This document shows positions 2,533 through 25,244 of a stretch of 26,463 nucleotides of DNA, piece after piece. Origin of the DNA: a virus; the IMG/VR virus record IMGVR_UViG_3300042885_000572, positions 1-26,463 of that record; one strand, written 5' to 3'. Position 1 is the stretch's first letter. Every line of letters begins with the position of its first letter. The translations under genes and the position numbers were made by a program. The notes beneath the pieces were generated by a model, which ran no database searches, was not told the DNA's origin, and worked only from the letters and a program-made list of their open reading frames with translations.

Positions 2533-5442
2533 TCAAGGCGGCTGAGTGCCAATCGGATAGAACGTATCAACCTCGACGTAGTATTCGTGGTAGAGGAGCA
2601 CCGACACATGGGCTCCACCAACGTCAGCTTTGGCATAGAGCCGCTTGTCGCGCCCGACCACGACCGTCGTGCTTGTGGCTGCAACGTTGGTGAAAGTGCC
2701 GGGAGCAGCGCCAAGATTGACGATTGAATATTTGATCTGAGCTCCAGCGGTCGTGGTGGAAAGAACCACGGAAATCGGGAATTGACCTGACCGAAAACCA
2801 ACGCCTCCGGGAGTAAACGTCGGGGCGGCTGTCTGTGTGTTGTTTTGTTGCACCAAAATAGATACCGAAGTCGATCCTCCTCCGACCGTTAGTTGCTTTC
2901 GGCGAATGCGCCTAGAGACGTCAATGCCAGCCATGAACACTTGCCACGTTCCGTTGGTTGGAATTTGGAACTCTGCAACGATACGTTGCTGACTTGAAGG
3001 CGTGTATTCTGCCGACCATAGCAACAGTTCCAGCGCCCCGTTTTTTGCGTACAAGCGAGCCCCAACAAGGTCGGCGGATGCGTCGGTGATTGTGGCTTCG
3101 ATTGTCCACCGTTCGTCAGTGTGGTGGTGAGTCAAAAAGTCACCGGCAACCATTTCGACTCCATCCGATTTGACCGAAGTAAAGACCGTCGTCGGCGCGT
3201 AGGGATCGGCGAACGTGTAGGAGATATTTGGGCAGAGCGTCGTGTCGGATAAATCAGCCACCGATTCGGCGTTGGCTGATTGAAGGCGGAAAGTTGCGGT
3301 CGATAACCCATCCAGATAGCCAACGAAAGATTCGTGGGTCATCGAGACCAAGTCGGACCGGTAGCCAATCCAGACCTTGTCCCCAACGTCGGCTGTCCTT
3401 GTCGCGGTGCCATACCGGGCGCGGCGGACTTTTAGCCGGTAGAACGAATCGCCAGAGATCACCCGCATGGCTCGCAAGGTGGAAACCTCAAAGACTTTTC
3501 TGTCGGAGGCTTTGAGGATTACGACGTAGACCGCGTTGTCGTTGATTGCGTCCTCGGTCTGAGTGTCCAGCATTTTGGACAGGTCGGCGGCTACTGTTCC
3601 GGCGTCGAGCGTCACCCGGAGGTTTTCTGTGTTGTCCTCGTTGCCCGTGGTCACGGTGCCGCCTGTGTCTGCGGTCGTTGAAACGACGGCCCCTGTGTTC
3701 GGGTAGCTAAACGTCGTCGAGTTGATCACGGTGACGGTGACCTGACCGTCAAAAGTCGGGTCGGCAAACCCAAAGATTGTGACCACGTCCCCACTCGTCA
3801 GGTTGTGCGCTGCCGATGTCGTCACCGTTGCCACGTTGGTCGAGCGGCCTCGGGTTGCAGTCGCCCGGCTGTAATACGGCCAAGACGCTTGAATTGTCCC
3901 GTGGATTGCAAATTGCTCGATGGATCCAATGTTGTAGAACCCCGAAGCATCATCTTTTCGCAGCCACACGTTTGCCCCGATGGTGACCGAAGATGTGCGG
4001 CCAATTAACGGCACCACCGCGGCGTCGTTGTCCGATGAAAACATCGACGGCGGAGGCTGGAAGAACTGTTGGAGCGATAGCGTTTCGTTGTCTGGGTAGG
4101 CACTGCCTTCGTCGGGCGCTCCAGTGGGAGCAAACGGAACCGGCGCGGATGCTCGGTCAGACTCAAACCGGATCGTTGCTCGGCCGGCGGGCGGTTGCGC
4201 GAGATCCTTGCCGATGCACCGGCAAATGATGGAGACCGAGAGCGCGTCGTGGGTCAGCAGAAATAGGTCACCCGGGCGGATGCTTGCAGCCTTTTCAGCG
4301 CGGACAACCAACGACCCTGAGAGTTTTGGCTCACCGACGATTTTCTGAAATTCGGCCGCGTGTTCGGATGCCTGGGTCCGGCGAGTGATCCACGGGCGGT
4401 CAAGTTTTGCGGTCCTCGGCTCTCCGGTGACGACGTAATTGTAGCCCGAGACCACAGACACGGACCCATTTTTGTAGGAGCGTTCGCGGTCGTTGAATTT
4501 GACTTGGGTCTGGTTGTAGGTCGTGGCCCATCCGTCGGCCGTGTAGCTCACCTCGTCGATGAGGTCGTGGTAGTCGATGGTCGTGGCAGCAGTGAATGCG
4601 GGCGGCGCTGCGTTGTGTGGGAACCGCCCGGCTTCGATCTCACCGGCTGAGGAGAAACGAACCCACCCGTCGCAGTAGGCCAACAAGTCGGCCGTGAATT
4701 GCCGGAGGCTCCTAGCCTGAGTCAAAACGGGCGAGATGCCTGTTTCGTCAATGTTGCTCTGGATCGCGGTGGCGGCAGACTGCCATGTCGTCGAATCCGG
4801 GCCTCCGGGCGCGTCAACTGTTAGCGCGGCCCCAAAGACCGAGTCGGTGTAAAGGTCGGCCATCGCGGCCACCGGGTTAGCCTGTCCGTCGGTCAGCGCG
4901 GCCGGGTCTCCGGTGATAATCGTCTGGTTTGGTTTGCGTCGAACGATGACCTCGACGTTGGGAGCCGACGTGCGCTCTCGGCCAAACAGAAACGCCTTGA
5001 GCAGCAGAACGCATTGCCGGCGGTAGTTTGGGTGCCCGTTTGCTGCAAGGATCGCCTCCCCGACTGAATCCAGAGTTTGGTTATCTGTTCCCCAATACAG
5101 ATACGCTGCCCCGTAGCCGTCAATGGTCAGCGGCTGCGGGTTTGAAGCCGATGGTCCAACAGTCCGCACCAACGAATAGCGGACCCAATGGGTGCTTGCC
5201 GGCGGCTTGTTGAGGTTGCTGGTCGTGTGCGACTGGGTGGCCTTGTAGACCACGCCAAGCCATTTCCTAAGATCCCCAACCGATAAAACTTGTCCGGCGT
5301 TCCAAGCTGTCGCGGTCGGCCAAACTGTTCGGCCATCCACGATAATGGAGACCAGTTCGTCCACCGGACCGGCGCAGACCACCCCGGCAATCGTGCCGTA
5401 GTAGTCGTAAATTTTTGTTCCGCTTCCTCCACCTTTTCCCAT
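2533..5442 (-). CDS. Tail tip 'megatron'/host-specificity protein (gpJ/GTA gp15-like, 969 aa)
   Basis: The protein forms the distal tail tip and probably contacts the host surface. It opens with GKGGGSGTKIYDYYGTIAGVV, typical of gpJ/GTA megatron proteins. Residues about 45-90 (WNAGQVLSVGDL...GVVYKATQSH...THWVRY) look like an inserted CBM5/12 chitin-binding-type module. A core of about 110-430 matches the megatron layout. Residues about 530-600 (NVATVTTSAAHNLTSGD... ) form a beta module common in phage tails. Residues about 870-955 (APTFTPGG...AQIKYSI) resemble a chitobiase/hexosaminidase C-terminal domain. The start at 5442 has an AGGA site six bases upstream. It follows the peptidase and Dit-hub genes as in gene transfer agents. 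Usual megatrons are around 1,000-1,300 residues, and here an N-terminal segment is encoded separately (5451-5648). Confidence 0.85.
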   Translation of the reverse strand: MGKGGGSGTKIYDYYGTIAGVVCAGPVDELVSIIVDGRTVWPTATAWNAGQVLSVGDLRKWLGVVYKATQSHTTSNLNKPPASTHWVRYSLVRTVGPSASNPQPLTIDGYGAAYLYWGTDNQTLDSVGEAILAANGHPNYRRQCVLLLKAFLFGRERTSAPNVEVIVRRKPNQTIITGDPAALTDGQANPVAAMADLYTDSVFGAALTVDAPGGPDSTTWQSAATAIQSNIDETGISPVLTQARSLRQFTADLLAYCDGWVRFSSAGEIEAGRFPHNAAPPAFTAATTIDYHDLIDEVSYTADGWATTYNQTQVKFNDRERSYKNGSVSVVSGYNYVVTGEPRTAKLDRPWITRRTQASEHAAEFQKIVGEPKLSGSLVVRAEKAASIRPGDLFLLTHDALSVSIICRCIGKDLAQPPAGRATIRFESDRASAPVPFAPTGAPDEGSAYPDNETLSLQQFFQPPPSMFSSDNDAAVVPLIGRTSSVTIGANVWLRKDDASGFYNIGSIEQFAIHGTIQASWPYYSRATATRGRSTNVATVTTSAAHNLTSGDVVTIFGFADPTFDGQVTVTVINSTTFSYPNTGAVVSTTADTGGTVTTGNEDNTENLRVTLDAGTVAADLSKMLDTQTEDAINDNAVYVVILKASDRKVFEVSTLRAMRVISGDSFYRLKVRRARYGTATRTADVGDKVWIGYRSDLVSMTHESFVGYLDGLSTATFRLQSANAESVADLSDTTLCPNISYTFADPYAPTTVFTSVKSDGVEMVAGDFLTHHHTDERWTIEATITDASADLVGARLYAKNGALELLLWSAEYTPSSQQRIVAEFQIPTNGTWQVFMAGIDVSRRIRRKQLTVGGGSTSVSILVQQNNTQTAAPTFTPGGVGFRSGQFPISVVLSTTTAGAQIKYSIVNLGAAPGTFTNVAATSTTVVVGRDKRLYAKADVGGAHVSVLLYHEYYVEVDTFYPIGTQPP

Positions 5443-5448
5443 GGTAAG

Positions 5449-5452
5449 TCCT
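5449..5452 (-). promoter_or_regulatory. Ribosome binding site of the megatron gene
   Basis: AGGA on the minus strand, overlapping the TAG stop of the upstream 65-aa gene and six bases before the ATG at 5440-5442. It supports this start over the upstream in-frame ATG at 5517, which would overlap the 65-aa gene by 67 bases. Confidence 0.7.
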
Positions 5453-5648
5453 ATTTTTTGCCCGGTCGTTCCTGCGGAGCTTCTTTCGTGAACTGGTTGT
5501 AAATCGGCGATACCCACCGAAGCGCAAGTTTCCGCTCACCACAAAACCAAGGGATCGAAACGGCCTCTTGGTTAGTCGAGAACTCGTCCGCCTCGGTGTT
5601 GGCGTCGTTGAGTTCGGGGTCCGGTTGGTTTTTTGTTTCGCCTTTCAA
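5451..5648 (-). CDS. Small tail-tip protein, probable detached N-terminus of the megatron (65 aa)
   Basis: The first 25 residues are polar and acidic. The remainder (NQEAVSIPWFCGERKLALRWVSP and on to a lysine-rich end) resembles the segment that in many gpJ/megatron proteins precedes the GKGGG motif ('E-a-x-P-v-P-y-x-x-G-x-R+L'). The megatron gene starts only eight bases downstream, with its ribosome binding site inside this gene's stop codon, so the two are likely coupled. The start is TTG at 5646-5648, overlapping the peptidase stop as TTGA and preceded by GGAGG eight bases upstream. It could be an independent accessory factor instead; the similarity is by eye. Confidence 0.65.
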   Translation of the reverse strand: MKGETKNQPDPELNDANTEADEFSTNQEAVSIPWFCGERKLALRWVSPIYNQFTKEAPQERPGKK

Positions 5649-6097
5649 GGTGCCGGCCTCCAGATGGTTGTGAGCCTCGAACGATAGGTTGCGTCCTCGG
5701 TCGTCGAGACCGTTGCCCCTAGGCCTTCGAGCGCGTGAATAAACCGGCCGTTGCGGAGTGCCGTGCCGAGGTGGTGGACGATGCGCCCGATGCGGAACCC
5801 TAGAACGTCCCCGGGCAGGATCTCGGAGTCGTGAGGCAACTGGGTGAATCGTTCCGCCATAGCATTAAAAAACGGATCGGCCAGCGAGTTTTCCCCAAAG
5901 CGACCATGAGAGATTGCCACGTCCGGGATGAGAATGTCGCCCCACCCAACGGCGGCGTAGAGGGCGCCCGCGAGGGTATGGCAGGAGACCCCGAGGCCCT
6001 TGGCCGATGAGTTGGCCGCAAACGGCGTCCCCACCCATGAGGCGGCTTCGACTTCGAGCGCTTCGATGCGCTCCTCGGTGAACCATGTTGGTGTCAT
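5645..6097 (-). CDS. NlpC/P60-like tail peptidase (GTA gp14/lambda gpK-like, 150 aa)
   Basis: A tail-tip cell-wall peptidase thought to open peptidoglycan during DNA entry. The candidate nucleophile is Cys39 in GVSCHTLAGAL, at the start of a helix as in NlpC/P60 enzymes (usually DC; here SC). PGDVLGF at about 95-101 is the conserved 'GD' strand, and His109 in HHLGTA fits the catalytic histidine. RFIHAL (His121) provides the third strand. It uses the compact single-domain size typical of GTA gp14. The ATG at 6095-6097 overlaps the Dit-hub stop as ATGA, and the stop overlaps the next TTG start. The position between hub and megatron genes is the classic order. No separate endolysin was found in the window. 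Confidence 0.85.
   Translation of the reverse strand: MTPTWFTEERIEALEVEAASWVGTPFAANSSAKGLGVSCHTLAGALYAAVGWGDILIPDVAISHGRFGENSLADPFFNAMAERFTQLPHDSEILPGDVLGFRIGRIVHHLGTALRNGRFIHALEGLGATVSTTEDATYRSRLTTIWRPAP
5657..5661 (-). promoter_or_regulatory. Strong ribosome binding site in front of a TTG start
   Basis: GGAGG on the minus strand, eight bases before the TTG at 5646-5648. It compensates for the rare start codon and lies within the final codons of the peptidase gene. Confidence 0.6.
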
Positions 6098-8118
6098 TTT
6101 TTACCACCACCGACATTCTGTGAGATTTTTACCAACGACGGATTAGTGGCCGGCAAGAACGGATGCCCTCCAAAATTAGCGTAGTTGGCAAATTTGTCAG
6201 TGCACGTTGCCTTTGATCCGTCGCAGCCCGGGAACAGTTTGACGGTCGAGAACGGCGGCGGAAACGGGCTTGGATCCCTTGCCAACGTGATCGTCAACGC
6301 CCCTGAGACTGGCGCGGTGTTGTCGATGATTGCCCGACGGCTAAGGTTTGCACCAGATTGAAACTCAACCCATCCACCAGAAAACCAGCCCGCGGTGATC
6401 GTTGGAACGGATCCGATGGTTCGGGCAAGGCTTGTCAGGTCGAATGTAAACGGATAGCCGACCGTGCCAGGGTTGCTGATGGTCGCGGTGAATTGCCATG
6501 CGGCGCTGGATAGCCCGCAGCCGGTCGAGAACAGCGCGTGGTTGCAGCCAATCTGCATTCTGAACCGTGGGTAGATCCGGTCAAACACCGTCCCCGCGGA
6601 CACGGCCTTTGCCGTCAACTTGGAACCGCGGACCGACAGCCCGATGATGTCCCCGGTGAAAAGCACCGTGTCGTTGGATCCGTTCGACCCGGACACGTCC
6701 ACCGACTTGATCGTCAGGCGGACAGGTGCCTCGGCTTGGACCGTGGCAAGTTTGACCAGCGGATCTCCGGCGACAACCTCGGACCGGATCTCGATCTCGT
6801 CGCGGTCAAGAAAAAGCGACTGCTTGACCATGCCGTGGTCCATGCGGCGGGAGGTGTAGGTGTTCCCTCCAGCGGTTAGGTCGGCCTCGTAGCTCGTCAG
6901 CCGGGTGGTCGTCGTTGTGACCCCAATGGTCTGGGCAAGCTCGTAGATGTAGCCCCGAGTGGTGAGGAGCCCGATGGTTGTGCCAAGGGTCTCGTCCCCG
7001 GCCGGTGAATACTCGGGAGGCAACTCGACGACGGAAACGGCCCCTTGGGCAACGCTGCCCATGATGAACTCTAACCCGAGGCGAGGCTTCTCAAACCGGG
7101 CAAGGACCAGCGTTGCAACCACGGTATCGGCTGCGGTGAATGCTCCGGGCGCACTGGCTAGGTTAACCGTGGGGTCACTGATGGTCGTTGTCCGAGTGTA
7201 ATTCACGATCCCGGTCCCCTGCACAAACGCGAGGTAGTCACCGGGCAGGATTCCAACGGCAGACTGCACCGTCAGCACAGTGGACCCGGCTCCGATATCT
7301 GCGGCCATGACTGCCGAGGAATGCCACGTCGGAGTCCAGAATGCTTTGCCGGACCCGTGGTCGCTGAAGAATCGGATGAGCTTCCAGCACTCGGCCGACG
7401 ATTGGGTGATCGTGCGGAACTGGGCTTCACGCACGTTGGTCTGCGGGTAAATCGTCTCGAATGGTGCCCGGCCAAAGCCGAGTTGCTCCCGGATGATTCG
7501 GACAGAAAACGACTCGGGAACCTCACGCCAGTCTAAAGCAGTTGGCCAAAGGCGTAGGTTAATAGCGTAACCGGCAAGATTTGGCCCGGGCTGGAAGGTT
7601 TGACTGCCTGGGACCAGCGCGTAGGTCGTCGATCCGGTCTCGGTGAAATTGACGTCAAACTGGGCAACGGTGGCGTTGATCCAGACCATTTCACGGTCCT
7701 CTAGGCGTCCCCAGAAGGCCGGAGCAACAAGGTCGTCAGCCAGCACCCATCCGGGCTCCACCGTGGTATAAAGTTCCCACGTTGACCAGTCGGCCTTATA
7801 CGCAACTTTGAGCCCCGTCGCTGCAATGTTGGCCCGGTTAGCCCATGTCTCAGCCAGCGGCCAAAACGGAACGATGATTGGCTGCGTTTGGTAGGCCCGT
7901 AGCGCGGTCTTAAACGTAAAGCTGTCTGTCCCTTGGATCGTCAGCCGGAACTTGAGCTTGGCCCGTAGAGTCGCAGCATGGGGCCTTCGGGCTTCGCGAC
8001 CTGTCAGGCCTTCCTCGAACTGCGTCACCAAGTCAAACGTCACCCCGACCGGCGATCCCCAGTCCGGGGCATCGTTTAGGAGGTAGACCGATTGACTGGC
8101 AAAGGTTGTCGAGATCAT
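6094..8118 (-). CDS. Fused distal tail protein (DUF2460-like) and hub protein (DUF2163/BR0599-like), 674 aa
   Basis: The N-terminal half (about 1-265) carries the DUF2460-type distal tail pattern, with REAQFRTITQSSAECWKLIRFF and GKAFWTPTW at about 230-265. The C-terminal half (about 385-674) fits the DUF2163/BR0599 hub family, ending with KFANYANFGGHPFLPATNPS. In gene transfer agents these are two separate genes (g12 and g13). Four cysteines are placed at 525, 534, 632 and 639 (C-x8-C ... C-x6-C). The two local spacings match the iron-sulfur ligands reported for lambda gpL and suit the Fe-S cluster reported in GTA hubs. A beta insert (about 268-340) joins the halves. Start and stop form ATGA overlaps with tape measure and peptidase genes. 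Confidence 0.85.
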   Translation of the reverse strand: MISTTFASQSVYLLNDAPDWGSPVGVTFDLVTQFEEGLTGREARRPHAATLRAKLKFRLTIQGTDSFTFKTALRAYQTQPIIVPFWPLAETWANRANIAATGLKVAYKADWSTWELYTTVEPGWVLADDLVAPAFWGRLEDREMVWINATVAQFDVNFTETGSTTYALVPGSQTFQPGPNLAGYAINLRLWPTALDWREVPESFSVRIIREQLGFGRAPFETIYPQTNVREAQFRTITQSSAECWKLIRFFSDHGSGKAFWTPTWHSSAVMAADIGAGSTVLTVQSAVGILPGDYLAFVQGTGIVNYTRTTTISDPTVNLASAPGAFTAADTVVATLVLARFEKPRLGLEFIMGSVAQGAVSVVELPPEYSPAGDETLGTTIGLLTTRGYIYELAQTIGVTTTTTRLTSYEADLTAGGNTYTSRRMDHGMVKQSLFLDRDEIEIRSEVVAGDPLVKLATVQAEAPVRLTIKSVDVSGSNGSNDTVLFTGDIIGLSVRGSKLTAKAVSAGTVFDRIYPRFRMQIGCNHALFSTGCGLSSAAWQFTATISNPGTVGYPFTFDLTSLARTIGSVPTITAGWFSGGWVEFQSGANLSRRAIIDNTAPVSGALTITLARDPSPFPPPFSTVKLFPGCDGSKATCTDKFANYANFGGHPFLPATNPSLVKISQNVGGGKK

Positions 8119-10577
8119 GCGCGAGAAAATTCGTGGGAGTGTTGGCGCATGATGTCCACCAGCACCGTGCGACCTTCATTCGACCGAGCCCAATCGGCAA
8201 GGCGGGCAGGGTTGTCGAAGACTCCCATGTTGAGCGTGATCGGACCCGGGGCGGCGGCGGATGTAAATGCACCGGCATCAGATACGCCACCGGAGGCCAT
8301 TGCGTTGAGGCTTGCAAGTCCGATGCGATCCACAGCGTCAGCCGGCACCACATACTCGCCGCGATGAACAACACCAGCCACGTCGTTCGGGTTTCCGTTG
8401 CCGGTGTAACCGCCCTCTCGAAAGGCAGCAAGTGATTGAGCCAGAACCATTCCCTGAGCCCCAAGAATAAATCCGGGAGCGGCGGCCGCGGCGGAACCGT
8501 AGGAAGCAATGGTCGCCAGCGTTGCCGGGGTTGCCCAGACCGCGCTTGAAGCAGCAGCAATCGGAACAGTCGCGGCAAGGCTCGCGGCCATGATGGACTT
8601 GCCTACGGTAGCCATCAAGATCTGAGTTGCCACCCACCGAACACCCATCTGGACAATCGACTGGACAATGGTCGTCAAGATCGTGGTGCCGATCATTGCC
8701 AAAGCTTGACCCCAAGACATCGTCCCCATGATAAGGCCTGTGATGCCGTTTGAGATGGACGAGATTGCGGAATTAAAGACGTCGGCAAAGGTCGTCGCCA
8801 TTTGCTGAGCGACTGTTCCAAATTGGTTTTGAAGTTGGACAACTGTAGATTGAAAATTTTGACTGAATGACTCGGGACTTGGTCCCATTCCGGTCATCTG
8901 ATTCTGAACGCCTCCAGCCGTGCCCTGAAGCCCAACCATCCGTTGCTCAATCTGCACCCGCTCGGTTTCGGTGGCTGTCGCCTTTAGCTTTTCGAGTGCG
9001 GCAATCTGTTTAGCGATCAGATCAAGCTCGTTTTGGAGAAGTCGCTTTTTTTCCTGATACTTTTCAATGTTGGTCATTAGCCAACTTGATTCGACCGCCC
9101 CACGTGCCTGATTGATTTGCTGCAACTGACGACTGTATTGTAGTTCCAGCTTTTGAAGCTCCAACTTTACGTTAATGAGCTTTGCCTCGTTCTCGATGAC
9201 AGCCTGAGCCCCTCCGGTGAGATCCTTGCGGGATTTTTCGACTGCCAACACTTGGTCGATGAGAGTCTTCAGCTTTTCACGGGCGGTAACCTGTTTTCCG
9301 CTTTCGTCGGTGATGCTGGACTCGATCCCAATAAACTCGCGGTAAGTCTCCAATAATGCGTCTACGATCTCCTTTTGCTTTGCGGCGTTGGCTTGAGCAA
9401 TCGCGGTTCCACCTGCCAGAGCTTCGTCGAAATTAGGAGTCGTCTGCTGGATGAGCGGAAGATTGACCCGTCCCAACGTAGCGACGGAAACCGAAGCCAG
9501 CACCGCGTTGATTGAAAGGCGGATTGCGGACCCGATTGCTTGGGCAGCGTAGACCCCGACCGAGTTCCAATAGCTTTGAAAAAACGTGTTGAGTTCGATG
9601 AACGCTCTAGCAGTGCCAACTGCCAAAGTTGCCGCCGAGTTGCCGATTGCGTTGGCGACCCTTTCGTCGGTGAAGAACGACAGCACCTTGTCGCGGAGAC
9701 CGGCAAATGCCTCGACCCCATACTCGACTCCGGCCTCGATAGTGAGTCCGATAAGTTCCGCAAATCGGCCGTCGCGCCACGATTGGACCGCCAACCGGGT
9801 AAACGCACCAATGCGGGTTCCGATGTCCTCAACCACCGGAATCAATTCGGTGAGTCCGGCCTTGAGCGCGTCAAATAACGGCTTGCCGATGTCGGCCAGC
9901 GCCATGTTGAACGTGTCCTTGAGAGTTGAAAGCAGACCGCTGAACGTCTGCGACTGGTCAGCCATGGCCCCGCCGAGTCGGCCGAACGTGTCCCGGAGGA
10001 TCGTCATGGCCTGACCGGCACCTTCACCAGACTCGGCTAGTTCGTTGAGCTTGCGGGCGGTCGTCCCGGAAATTAGGCCCATTTCCAACAACCGAAGTGT
10101 GGCCTCGCCAACGGGCGTGCCCGACTGGAGTCCAGCGTACAAGCGGCCGATCCACATAGCGGCCTCCTCCAATGGTCTCCCCGTCGCGGAAGCGGCGTCA
10201 CCGACAAGGCGAAGACCGTCACCGGACGCCAGTGCCCCGTTGGTGAGACTCTGAAGAACCCTTGAGGCTTGAACGATCTCGGGAAGCTCAAACGGCGTTT
10301 GGGCAGCAAACTTTGCCAACTCGGCCATGCGGCGCGAAGCCGCTTCGGCATTGCCTAACAAGGTCTTGAAAGCAACGGCCTGTTGCTCCAATTCGGCGTT
10401 GAACTTGACGGATTGCTGAATTGCAGCGCCGAGGCTGACAACTGCACCCACAGACGCAGCGATGCCCGCCAGCGTTGCCTGGAGTCCTGCCGCGGCGGAT
10501 CCGATGGCTCGAAGGCCCGCATTGACGTCCGCGGAGCCAACCATCCCGATTTTGATCCGTAAGTTCGTGTCAGCCAT
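8115..10577 (-). CDS. Tail tape measure protein (820 aa)
   Basis: Sets tail length and is ejected with DNA. The N-terminal 60 residues are alanine/glycine-rich and hydrophobic. A typical 'AVAFKTLLGNAEAASRRMAELAKFAAQTPFEL' region (in pieces, about 67-100) follows, as in lambda-like tape measures. The middle (about 410-590) is helical and coiled. A hydrophobic, membrane-active stretch lies at about 630-715. The end carries GGYTG (722) and VHRGEYVVPA (about 737-746), a hallmark of tape-measure C-termini. At roughly 0.15 nm per residue the predicted tail is about 120 nm (inference). It follows the tail chaperone ORFs, the invariant position. The ATG at 10575-10577 has an AAGGGGG tract 11 bases upstream. 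Confidence 0.93.
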   Translation of the reverse strand: MADTNLRIKIGMVGSADVNAGLRAIGSAAAGLQATLAGIAASVGAVVSLGAAIQQSVKFNAELEQQAVAFKTLLGNAEAASRRMAELAKFAAQTPFELPEIVQASRVLQSLTNGALASGDGLRLVGDAASATGRPLEEAAMWIGRLYAGLQSGTPVGEATLRLLEMGLISGTTARKLNELAESGEGAGQAMTILRDTFGRLGGAMADQSQTFSGLLSTLKDTFNMALADIGKPLFDALKAGLTELIPVVEDIGTRIGAFTRLAVQSWRDGRFAELIGLTIEAGVEYGVEAFAGLRDKVLSFFTDERVANAIGNSAATLAVGTARAFIELNTFFQSYWNSVGVYAAQAIGSAIRLSINAVLASVSVATLGRVNLPLIQQTTPNFDEALAGGTAIAQANAAKQKEIVDALLETYREFIGIESSITDESGKQVTAREKLKTLIDQVLAVEKSRKDLTGGAQAVIENEAKLINVKLELQKLELQYSRQLQQINQARGAVESSWLMTNIEKYQEKKRLLQNELDLIAKQIAALEKLKATATETERVQIEQRMVGLQGTAGGVQNQMTGMGPSPESFSQNFQSTVVQLQNQFGTVAQQMATTFADVFNSAISSISNGITGLIMGTMSWGQALAMIGTTILTTIVQSIVQMGVRWVATQILMATVGKSIMAASLAATVPIAAASSAVWATPATLATIASYGSAAAAAPGFILGAQGMVLAQSLAAFREGGYTGNGNPNDVAGVVHRGEYVVPADAVDRIGLASLNAMASGGVSDAGAFTSAAAPGPITLNMGVFDNPARLADWARSNEGRTVLVDIMRQHSHEFSRA

Positions 10578-22059: not shown

Positions 22060-23860
22060 CAGAGTTGGTCATGCGAAGGCGGTTGTGGAAAATTGCACCG
22101 GCAACTTGCATGACTTCGCAGTCGGCCAAGTGATTCGGCCATTTTGAGGAACGAGACAACCACGTCCACGTTGTTCGGCCGGTGGCGCTGGAAAGGCGGG
22201 CGACCTTTTGCTCGCAATCAAGGTGCCTCCAGTATTCCGGCGAGGCTACGTTGTCGGCGACCTCCCACCGGGTGGCCGTCTTTCCCTTGCGGAGGCGTTC
22301 TAGGATGTCCTTGGTCACGTCGGTCCCAAACTCCAGCAGCTTAAGTTCAAGACGTCCCTGCCGGCCAGCGTTGTCACCGACCCGAGGGTCAATGCCTCGG
22401 AGGAAGAATGGATCCTCCACCCCGGTCTTTGGGTTGCGCCAGCCTTTCCTTGGCATTCCTTTTGCCGGCATCCATCCGACCCACAGAGGCACCCGGCCGG
22501 TCCTCGGGAAGAATCGTCCCCACCGGAGGCATTCCGAGTAAACGCTTGGCGCATCGTAGCCTGAATCGATGATGACATGGACGTCCTGCACCCCGTGCTG
22601 GCCCTGCTTTTCCCTCACGTCGTGCCAAGTGTCCAGTGGTCCAGCGTCGATGGCTCGGGATGACCCGTCCTCGTTCCATGCACGGCAAACAAACCAGAAG
22701 TGCGGGCTGGAAGCCTGACAGTCTACGGTCAGAAACTTGATCGCTTTTTCAGGAACGCCTTCGGTCCCGGCGACAATCAATTCCTCGCGTTGTCGGGGCG
22801 CGGCTTGGTTTTCCCATGGTTCGCTTAAATTGCCGTTGATGAAGCCCTGAAGCCCGATAAGGGATTCCTGAGCCTCCAAGAACTGCACGGCTAAGTGCCC
22901 CCATGTGCATTTGCGATCCGGGCTGTAAAGGCTCGACAGATGGTAAGATCGGACCCCGGGCAACGAACCTTTGTTTTCGGGAATCCATTGTCCGTGTCGA
23001 AGGCTGGCAACCTTTTGCGAGTCGTTAATGGCCCCTTTGCAGAGTTGGCATTCGTAGCGGGCGGATCCGCGCACCTTGCCGAAGTCCCATTTGCCGTCTT
23101 CCAGTTTGGCGCTCTCGTCCCACTTGACCTGCTTCCACTCCAGCCGGATGAGGGCCTTGCAATTCGGGCAGGGCAGGTAATACCGGCGCTGGTCGCCTCG
23201 AAGGAACCGCTGCCAGATTCGGCCCTCGGTGGTTGTCGGGGTCGAGGTCAAGAACAGTTTGGAGGATGAGAACGCCTTGAGGCGCTGCTCGGCCAAGTCC
23301 AGCGCGTCGGCTTCCCTGTCTGAGGCTTGGGCGAACTTGTCAACCTCATCGGCTACCAACACCCGGACGGGTCGTGAGGCTAGGTTGGCCGGGCTGTTGC
23401 TTCCCACAAAAGTCAGCGTCGAGCGGTCAAAATGCTGTTCTAGGTGGGTCAACTTGTCTTTGTCGCTTGGGAAATGCGCGACCATGGCCGGGCAGTCTTC
23501 GAGCATCGGCATCCATCGAGACTTGGAGAACGACCGGGCAAGGCCTTCGGTAGGCATCAACCAGAGCGCCGGGCTCGGCTCGTTGTCGATGAGCCACGCA
23601 AGGCCAGCCATCAGGGTCGTCGTCTTTGACGTCTGAGATCCCCAGCACAGCGTCATCTCGACGACCCCGGAGTCTTTCCAGCATTCAAGCGGTTCGCGAA
23701 CGTAGGGCCGGACGCTTGTCGAGTACGGTCCCGGATGCTCGGTCTGCCTCGCGGTAAGTTTGAGATTGGCCTCGGCCCATTGGACCACGGTTTGCCGGGG
23801 CGTCGGGCGGTAGAGCCCGCGCCGGAACTCCAGAAGATCCCGCTGGAGGTCGGTCAACAT
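22049..23860 (-). CDS. terL: Terminase large subunit (GpA family, 603 aa)
   Basis: The packaging motor. The ATPase domain has a Walker A-like WGSQTSKTT (73-81, a Ser where many have Gly before Lys79), Walker B VRVLVADEVD (165-174) and the coupling motif LTSTPTT (204-210). A zinc-binding pair CPNC (231-234) and CQLC (271-274) lies between domains, as in GpA proteins. The RNase-H-like nuclease shows Asp380 (FLTVDCQ), Asp432 (IIDSGYD) and Asp580 (LADCEV). The family usually spans 550-650 aa. An AGGA site five bases before ATG 23858-23860 supports the start, which overlaps the Mom stop by seven bases. Confidence 0.95.
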   Translation of the reverse strand: MLTDLQRDLLEFRRGLYRPTPRQTVVQWAEANLKLTARQTEHPGPYSTSVRPYVREPLECWKDSGVVEMTLCWGSQTSKTTTLMAGLAWLIDNEPSPALWLMPTEGLARSFSKSRWMPMLEDCPAMVAHFPSDKDKLTHLEQHFDRSTLTFVGSNSPANLASRPVRVLVADEVDKFAQASDREADALDLAEQRLKAFSSSKLFLTSTPTTTEGRIWQRFLRGDQRRYYLPCPNCKALIRLEWKQVKWDESAKLEDGKWDFGKVRGSARYECQLCKGAINDSQKVASLRHGQWIPENKGSLPGVRSYHLSSLYSPDRKCTWGHLAVQFLEAQESLIGLQGFINGNLSEPWENQAAPRQREELIVAGTEGVPEKAIKFLTVDCQASSPHFWFVCRAWNEDGSSRAIDAGPLDTWHDVREKQGQHGVQDVHVIIDSGYDAPSVYSECLRWGRFFPRTGRVPLWVGWMPAKGMPRKGWRNPKTGVEDPFFLRGIDPRVGDNAGRQGRLELKLLEFGTDVTKDILERLRKGKTATRWEVADNVASPEYWRHLDCEQKVARLSSATGRTTWTWLSRSSKWPNHLADCEVMQVAGAIFHNRLRMTNSDAN

Positions 23861-24618
23861 TCGAGTCCTGACCGTTGAGAGTGGAGCGCCGGGATCGGTT
23901 TCGAGCCGTCCTTTGCGGACTGGGAGTCCGCCGTGTCCTTAGTGTCACTTCCGGCGCATTTTGGTTTTCCGAGGTACATGGAAGCACCTCGACGTTCGAT
24001 TTCTGTAAACGGAATAATTGGGACGGTCAACCTTTTACGGGCTTCTGGGTTGAGAAAGTACAGGTAACGCAGTTGGAAACCTAAAAGTGGGACAGCCCCG
24101 TTTTTCTTCCAATAACCAGCGCTTTCGCCTTTGATGATGTAGTTTGAATTGTTCAGGGTTTTGTCCGCCACAACAGAACCGTCAGGCATCTTGAGGATTG
24201 TTTTGTTTTCCTTGATCCCGGTTAAAACAAAACCGCTGGCCCTGTAAATTGTTCCATCACCGCACTGAGTCGCGTCGGCAAATGAGATAACCCAGTCAAT
24301 GTGAGGATAGTGTTTTCGGATCAATCGCATAGCGACTGAGATTGCCCGGCTCTCGCTATTCCTTGGCAACCATTCCGAAAAAGCCATCCGATTGAGTTCA
24401 AGAAACCCATTCCAATGGGTGTCTTGGACGATGGTCATGGTCTTCCTTTTGTCCATTGATGGGCCAAACTGCATTGCCCCTCCGCATTTTCCGTTTAGGA
24501 AAACACCGAAGTGCAACTGTGAGTTTGGAACCACTTTCCCAGAGTAATGACAGGAGGTAACGACCTTGTCGGCGTCGGCCCTGCTGATTGGCTTAACGAT
24601 GATGTCCTTGGCGCTCAT
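23854..24618 (-). CDS. mom: Mom-family DNA adenine modification protein (254 aa)
   Basis: Related by motif to phage Mu Mom, which converts adenines in phage DNA to a methylcarbamoyl form and thereby blocks many restriction enzymes. The fold is GNAT-like. The visible pattern is CHYSG (23-27), LHFGVFLNGKCGGAMQFGPS (35-54), LNRMAFSEWLPRNSESRAIS (75-94), and IDWVISFADATQCGDGTIYR (107-126) followed by ASGF. The HY pair, Asp115 and Tyr125 are the likeliest active-site residues by analogy with residues implicated in Mu Mom. The C-terminal 50 residues (about 205-254) look poorly structured. ATG overlaps the ParB stop as ATGA; the stop overlaps the terL start. No Com-like activator gene is seen here. 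Confidence 0.88.
   Translation of the reverse strand: MSAKDIIVKPISRADADKVVTSCHYSGKVVPNSQLHFGVFLNGKCGGAMQFGPSMDKRKTMTIVQDTHWNGFLELNRMAFSEWLPRNSESRAISVAMRLIRKHYPHIDWVISFADATQCGDGTIYRASGFVLTGIKENKTILKMPDGSVVADKTLNNSNYIIKGESAGYWKKNGAVPLLGFQLRYLYFLNPEARKRLTVPIIPFTEIERRGASMYLGKPKCAGSDTKDTADSQSAKDGSKPIPALHSQRSGLEC
23866..23869 (-). promoter_or_regulatory. Ribosome binding site of the large terminase gene
   Basis: AGGA on the minus strand, five bases before the ATG at 23858-23860, inside the end of the Mom-family gene. It indicates that terL can be initiated independently as well as by coupling. Confidence 0.6.
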
Positions 24619-25244
24619 GGGTTGGTGCGGTTGTACTCTTGGCAGATTGCTGCCAAGGCGTTGCCGTTCCCGTTTTCATTGATTGGGTGGTTGTCCAATC
24701 CGAGTTCCTTTGCCTTTGAGATGGCTCGGTCTACCTCCTCGGCTTGTTCGTCGTGAAGGGTGAAAGTTTTTTGTTGGATCGGTTGGCGGTCACCGGAATT
24801 AAGGTCTGGCATAGATCCGTCCCCAACCTCGAATTGCCCGAGGATTTTCTCGACCTCGGCATCGGTAAATCCGGTCAAATCCATGTTGAAACCTTCCTCC
24901 TTGAGAATGTCCAACTCGGCCTTGAGCATTGCATCGTCCCAACCCGCATTTAGGGCGAGCTTGTTGTCGGCAATGACGTAGGCGCGAACTTGGGCGGGTG
25001 TCAGATGCCCGAGGCGGATGCACGGGATCGTCTCCATGCCGAGCTTGCGGGCGGCCATGACCCGGCCGTGCCCAGCAACGATGGTTCCGCGGGTGTCGAT
25101 CAGCACTGGATTCGTCCAGCCGAACTCGACCATTGAGGCGGCAATCTGGGCGACTTGCTCGGCCGAATGCGTCCGGCTGTTGGTGGCGTAAGGTATCAGG
25201 TCATCGACCTTGATTTGCTCAATCGTTGGTTGGGATTTCTTCAT
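24615..25244 (-). CDS. ParB/Srx-fold nuclease-like protein (209 aa)
   Basis: The N-terminal ParB domain is clear: KVDDLIPYATNSRTHSAEQV, FGWTNPVLID, and the nucleotide-site motif VAGHGRVMAARKLG (56-69, GHGR where chromosomal ParB has GERR). Then HLTPAQVRAYVIADNKLALNAGW follows. The C-terminal part (TFTLHDEQAEEVDRAIS, NHPINENGNGNALAAICQEY) resembles that of phage ParB proteins that accompany DNA methylases. There is no HTH/ParB centromere-binding domain or ParA partner, so chromosome segregation is unlikely. It is coupled to the terminase small subunit and Mom genes by ATGA overlaps. It could recruit the Mom enzyme to DNA or nick DNA (inference). Confidence 0.85.
   Translation of the reverse strand: MKKSQPTIEQIKVDDLIPYATNSRTHSAEQVAQIAASMVEFGWTNPVLIDTRGTIVAGHGRVMAARKLGMETIPCIRLGHLTPAQVRAYVIADNKLALNAGWDDAMLKAELDILKEEGFNMDLTGFTDAEVEKILGQFEVGDGSMPDLNSGDRQPIQQKTFTLHDEQAEEVDRAISKAKELGLDNHPINENGNGNALAAICQEYNRTNP

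Follow-up and report, generated by a model that had tools for sequence, protein, structure and literature searches.

The window analysed here, the whole 26,463-nucleotide stretch of IMG/VR record IMGVR_UViG_3300042885_000572, raises the question of how a phage tail is finished when its distal tail protein (Dit) and its hub are made as one polypeptide. The first-pass annotation placed such a fusion at 6094..8118, and Pfam, profile and fold comparisons confirmed that both parts lie in one chain: the gene is a single intact ORF on the minus strand, encoding 674 residues from an ATG start. It also held that GTA-like phages keep the two genes apart, which is borne out by R4C and by our survey of hub loci.

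The neighbouring genes are also on the minus strand. Upstream lies the tape measure protein (8115..10577, 820 aa), and downstream lie an NlpC/P60 cell-wall peptidase of 150 aa (5645..6097; PF00877 at 23.7 bits against a cut-off of 23, with the TIGR02219 score below its cut-off) and a second hub protein of the 'megatron' or gp53-like type (2533..5517, 994 aa; PF13550, PHROG_1101). RcGTA and R4C share this order of tape measure, Dit, hub, NlpC peptidase and megatron, although there Dit and hub are separate genes and the Dit is a single domain present in six copies. The stop codon of the tape measure gene overlaps the start of the fusion gene as ATGA, and the fusion stop overlaps the peptidase start in the same way; the window shares both overlaps with nearly all relatives read. 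The junction of the Dit and hub parts in the window is free of ATG, GTG and TTG, so that a separate hub arising by internal initiation there is unlikely, and this candidate was rejected.

Residues 71-101 of the megatron have a weak match, below the Pfam cut-off, to CBM5/12 carbohydrate-binding modules, and its homologues in two relatives (L027 and L028) seemingly carry two CBM5/12-like repeats.

The two parts of the fusion protein

No Pfam family matched the N-terminal part. Profile–profile comparison, with a small family profile of 9 sequences, aligned residues 6-369 with residues 169-565 of gp49, the Dit of the Casadabanvirus JBD30 (PDB 8RK3), and its relatives (E 1.2e-17, score 136), against scores of 12-18 for eight shuffled profiles and a reversed one. 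Each half also aligns on its own with one half of gp49: domain 1, residues ~1-185 (7564..8118, minus strand), with gp49 169-352 (hhalign, E 4e-10), and domain 2, residues ~186-370 (7009..7563, minus strand), with gp49 409-565 (E 5e-10). PHROG_1082, the family to which gp49 itself belongs (867 bits), matches residues 128-367 at 3e-9 along the same profile stretch as the gp49 alignment. A strand-helix-strand order occurs twice in the first AlphaFold model, once in each domain, with an OB-like decoration inserted in domain 2 at residues ~268-330 (pLDDT ~80-90), and the top Foldseek matches are the Dit of JBD30 (8rk3_D, 4.6e-16) and that of Chi (8vjh_B, 1.3e-13). Profiles and model together identify the N-terminal part as a tandem Dit, equivalent to gp49 minus its N-terminal 170 residues. 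The portion absent from the fusion protein, where the alignment begins only at gp49 residue 169, comprises domains I-II of gp49, whose extra ~170 N-terminal residues form an arm with domain I wrapping the fibres. This arm is likewise missing from gp39 of RcWhiteOak (Casjensviridae), a compact tandem Dit of 394 aa, and is probably not general to the tandem Dit family.

The AlphaFold models, all of a single chain, were of moderate quality overall (pLDDT 56-61, pTM 0.39-0.45). The first run gave a good Dit and a poor hub, and the second, with many hubs in the alignment, a poor Dit and a good hub (pLDDT ~80-90 for most of 390-650), such that one half was used from each. A low-confidence linker of ~16 residues at 369-386 separates the Dit from the hub.

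The C-terminal part (~390-660) is a standard DUF2163/BR0599 hub. Both PF09356 (68.8 bits, cut-off 22.9) and PF09931 (34.3 bits, cut-off 26) matched above their thresholds, and the TIGR02218 equivalog cut-off of 80.5 was missed at 56 bits, placing the protein in the broad hub family and not in the narrower equivalog. A sequence search with this part retrieves the solved hubs of Chi, JBD30, R4C and RcGTA, and Foldseek matched its model to 8rk3_O (1.6e-15), 8vjh_D (1e-13), 6tba_7A (1e-11), 8gtc_P (3e-10) and, remotely, lambda gpL (8iyk_L, 5e-5); the hub part of the model thus matches solved hubs in which the four cysteines converge. Along the minus strand, the hub attachment domain at residues ~386-519 (6562..6963; PF09931 402-536; model pLDDT mostly 80-90) is followed by the first cysteine pair (6517..6546), an oligosaccharide-binding-type insert at residues ~541-629 (6232..6498) and the second cysteine pair (6202..6225). 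The pairs were placed by sequence and alignment, and the insert by PF09356 (577-658), alignment to the corresponding insert of JBD30 gp50, and the hub domain maps of RcGTA and R4C.

The four cysteines

The protein has cysteines at positions 244, 525, 534, 632 and 639 only. The last four were invariant in 53 of 53 aligned hubs; C244 was not conserved. Their arrangement, C525-x8-C534 ... C632-x6-C639, had been likened to lambda gpL, and the local spacings are indeed exactly those of gpL Cys173/182/205/212 (PMC10721106). The same annotation pointed to an enlarged gap between the pairs, but this is no special feature of the phage: the 97 residues found here contrast with 22 in gpL, which has no inserted domain, but are ordinary for the family, with 71-99 residues in 73 of 76 hubs among the matches listed, and the hubs of RcGTA and R4C carry the insert as a recognised oligosaccharide-binding domain. 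Since the survey pattern demanded the second cysteine pair only, the invariance of the first is not a product of selection; its spacing was x8 in 72 of the 76 hubs with enough sequence among the matches listed, x9 in 3 and x7 in 1. A relative lacking one pair, which the annotation had named as evidence against its proposal, was not encountered among these 76. The hubs of L104 and L118 have 174-247 residues between the pairs, showing that far larger domains can be accommodated at the insert site.

C525, C534, C632 and C639 align with Cys147, 156, 238 and 245 of JBD30 gp50, which hold a putative metal ion (PMC11445458). The hubs of RcGTA (PMC7296036) and R4C (PMC10276861) have the same domain plan as the hub part of the fusion protein, with an insert that both reports call an oligosaccharide-binding domain and four conserved cysteines that bind an iron-sulfur cluster. 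For lambda gpL, PMC10721106 relays a [4Fe-4S] cluster and calls its function in lambda uncharacterised. The four-cysteine pattern is therefore a known family trait and not new, and the present site adds one more clade to a widely conserved feature. The proposal of a conserved redox cofactor at the tail tip survives in part: a metal or Fe-S site does appear to be retained despite the fusion, in keeping with the invariance of the cysteines, but a redox role goes beyond the evidence, because the function of the gpL cluster is described as uncharacterised and the JBD30 density only as a putative metal ion. On our analysis, a structural role is the most likely one for the site.

Fused and split forms

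The search for fused and split relatives, also proposed in the first-pass annotation, found the fusion intact in 18 further metagenomic virus contigs at 35-98% identity and the split form in cultured phages. Of the fused relatives, 14 contigs are 84-98% identical to the window protein, with L018 at 58%, L030 at 55%, a longer form in L028, and a divergent protein of 584 aa in L161 at 35-37%. Relatives found by protein similarity were all fused where complete, with the single exception of L160, and the junction is conserved among the fused ones. Among cultured phages, 641 records contain a similar hub, but none of them matches the query over 80% of its length and none showed the fusion; in JBD30, M6, PS6, KL1, Pan1, S0112 and others the Dit and hub genes are separate and adjacent, with overlapping ends in several (among JBD30, M6, KL1, PS6 and Pan1). 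In a survey of at least 80 virus loci that carry the hub motif, a sample that includes several truncated by the end of their contig, one fused case was present among the matches listed, L110; this locus is on the same contig as L027 and belongs to the same clade as the other fusions. Upstream of split hubs are ORFs of ~210 aa, or longer ones, of 370-620 aa with a single one of 1081 aa, which the tandem-Dit profile recognises. The N-terminal extensions of eight hub ORFs (L044, L065, L067, L070, L075, L081, L087 and L089) were discarded as fusion candidates, as their Arg-rich sequence was judged by eye to come from read-through, upstream, of a different frame. A search of 84,980 bacterial and archaeal genomes (GTDB species) with either query gave no relatives, and hence no prophage form and no host.

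The closest parallel among known systems is gp49 and gp50 of JBD30, a two-domain Dit followed by a C-x8-C / C-x6-C hub in the same order and with the same folds, but encoded by two genes; the genes after gp50 also differ, and the stretch read has no gene annotated as an NlpC peptidase. Chi likewise resembles both halves by fold, and the hub by sequence, in its distal tail protein and baseplate hub 1 (PDB 8VJH), which are separate chains. In lambda, too, the Dit (gpM) is separate. A Dit-hub fusion was not found in the literature searched, which is not proof of absence, and it appears to be hitherto undescribed. The fusion is real and conserved; what is new about it is that a tandem Dit and a hub are covalently joined.

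Two variants show what the fused gene can tolerate. In L028 (1943-5482; 1180 aa) and L027 (2-2371), ~500 extra residues are inserted precisely at the boundary of the two Dit domains, following residue ~184; they are repetitive and look typical of beta-helices, and may give the tail ring a tailspike-like module. The L028 insert had no match in the PDB, Pfam or PHROG. In L160, the fused gene ends cleanly inside the hub attachment domain at about residue 477, and the equivalent of residues 484-674, with the cysteine and oligosaccharide-binding part, has its own ATG and stands apart as a gene of 200 codons. These hub halves (G002:C1:12379-13803 and 6464-7039, minus strand) are ~5.3 kb apart, with four genes between them, fibre-like ones included. 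Although this split was seen in one contig, the nearest relative (L182) ending too early for comparison, it indicates that the wider family can do without the full fusion.

A proposed architecture for the tail end

In JBD30, the two-domain Dit chains assemble as a trimer, which converts the sixfold symmetry of the tail to the threefold symmetry of the baseplate (PMC11445458). We consider it likely, with a probability of about 0.8, that the fusion gene represents joined neighbours of the JBD30/YuA/Chi type, a tandem Dit (gp49 lacking the fibre-binding arms at its N-terminus) and the first hub (gp50, the 'upper baseplate protein'), whose product makes a trimeric tail end with a structural Fe-S or metal site. 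From these homologies we infer that three fused chains would form the tail end, their six Dit domains arranged below the last tube disc as a pseudo-hexameric ring, and that each chain would run down into one hub subunit docking on a separate trimer of the megatron. The four cysteines would hold an Fe-S cluster, or another metal, and so clamp both ends of the oligosaccharide-binding insert. With a tandem Dit, Dit and hub would be present in equal copy number and fusion would be stoichiometrically free, which would not be so with a single Dit. We infer that the duplication of the Dit came before the fusion: it would have left Dit and hub at three copies each, after which their adjacent and often overlapping genes could fuse with stoichiometry unchanged. 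As all fused cases may stem from one event, the association of duplication with fusion is not open to statistical testing.

Several other readings of the gene were weighed. The split forms often have overlapping genes, so a small error, such as a lost stop or a frameshift, would join the frames; however, the 18 further contigs, from different metagenome records and as little as 35% identical, keep the frame open through the junction, and these independent contigs rule out an assembly or sequencing artefact. The gene order matches that of RcGTA and R4C, and the first-pass annotation had accordingly taken the Dit to be of the GTA type. A single Dit like RcGTA g12, used in six copies, would need six fused chains or a mixture once joined to a hub. 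Such a protein is very improbable here and largely refuted: two Dit domains of the JBD30 gp49/Chi type are recognised by profile and model, 364 residues suit two domains, profile comparison of the N-terminal part with the single Dit of R4C gave no match, and the GTA-type Dit family (DUF2460, PF09343; one domain of ~210 aa) matched nowhere in the fusion protein.

The chain could also be a polyprotein, made fused and cut into Dit and hub during assembly to give a virion like that of JBD30. The low-confidence linker offers a place for such a cut, and L160 demonstrates that parts of the protein can be encoded as separate chains; yet the junction is conserved in the fused relatives and no protease has an obvious link to the fusion protein, which makes processing unlikely. 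More plausible, though still the less favoured option, is that the cysteines hold zinc or another single metal ion, as the description of JBD30 gp50, the closest solved relative, would allow; the iron-sulfur clusters modelled in the RcGTA and R4C hubs, and that reported for gpL, speak instead for a [4Fe-4S] cluster.

If the trimer of fused chains is correct, it offers a simple evolutionary route past the symmetry mismatch of the tail, in which the ring subunit is duplicated and then joined to the hub. One polypeptide would carry both the sixfold-to-threefold step and the metal-clamped hub, and the same chain would serve as a platform for domain exchange, as in the L027/L028 insert and the L160 split; we hold this reading as a whole to be somewhat probable. 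The fusion marks a place in the tail ring where large surface domains can be inserted, and the idea of a fused hub becomes testable by mass spectrometry or cryo-EM.

Hubs have been joined to other partners: gp40 of RcWhiteOak (L019:7167-10208) and gp45 of RcCWillis (L036:7687-10158), from Rhodobacter phages, combine the hub with a GTA TIM-barrel domain in one protein, unlike the present fusion to a Dit. Elsewhere in the window, a Mom-family DNA-modification protein is encoded next to a ParB-like protein (23854-24618 and 24615-25244), just upstream of the large terminase gene.
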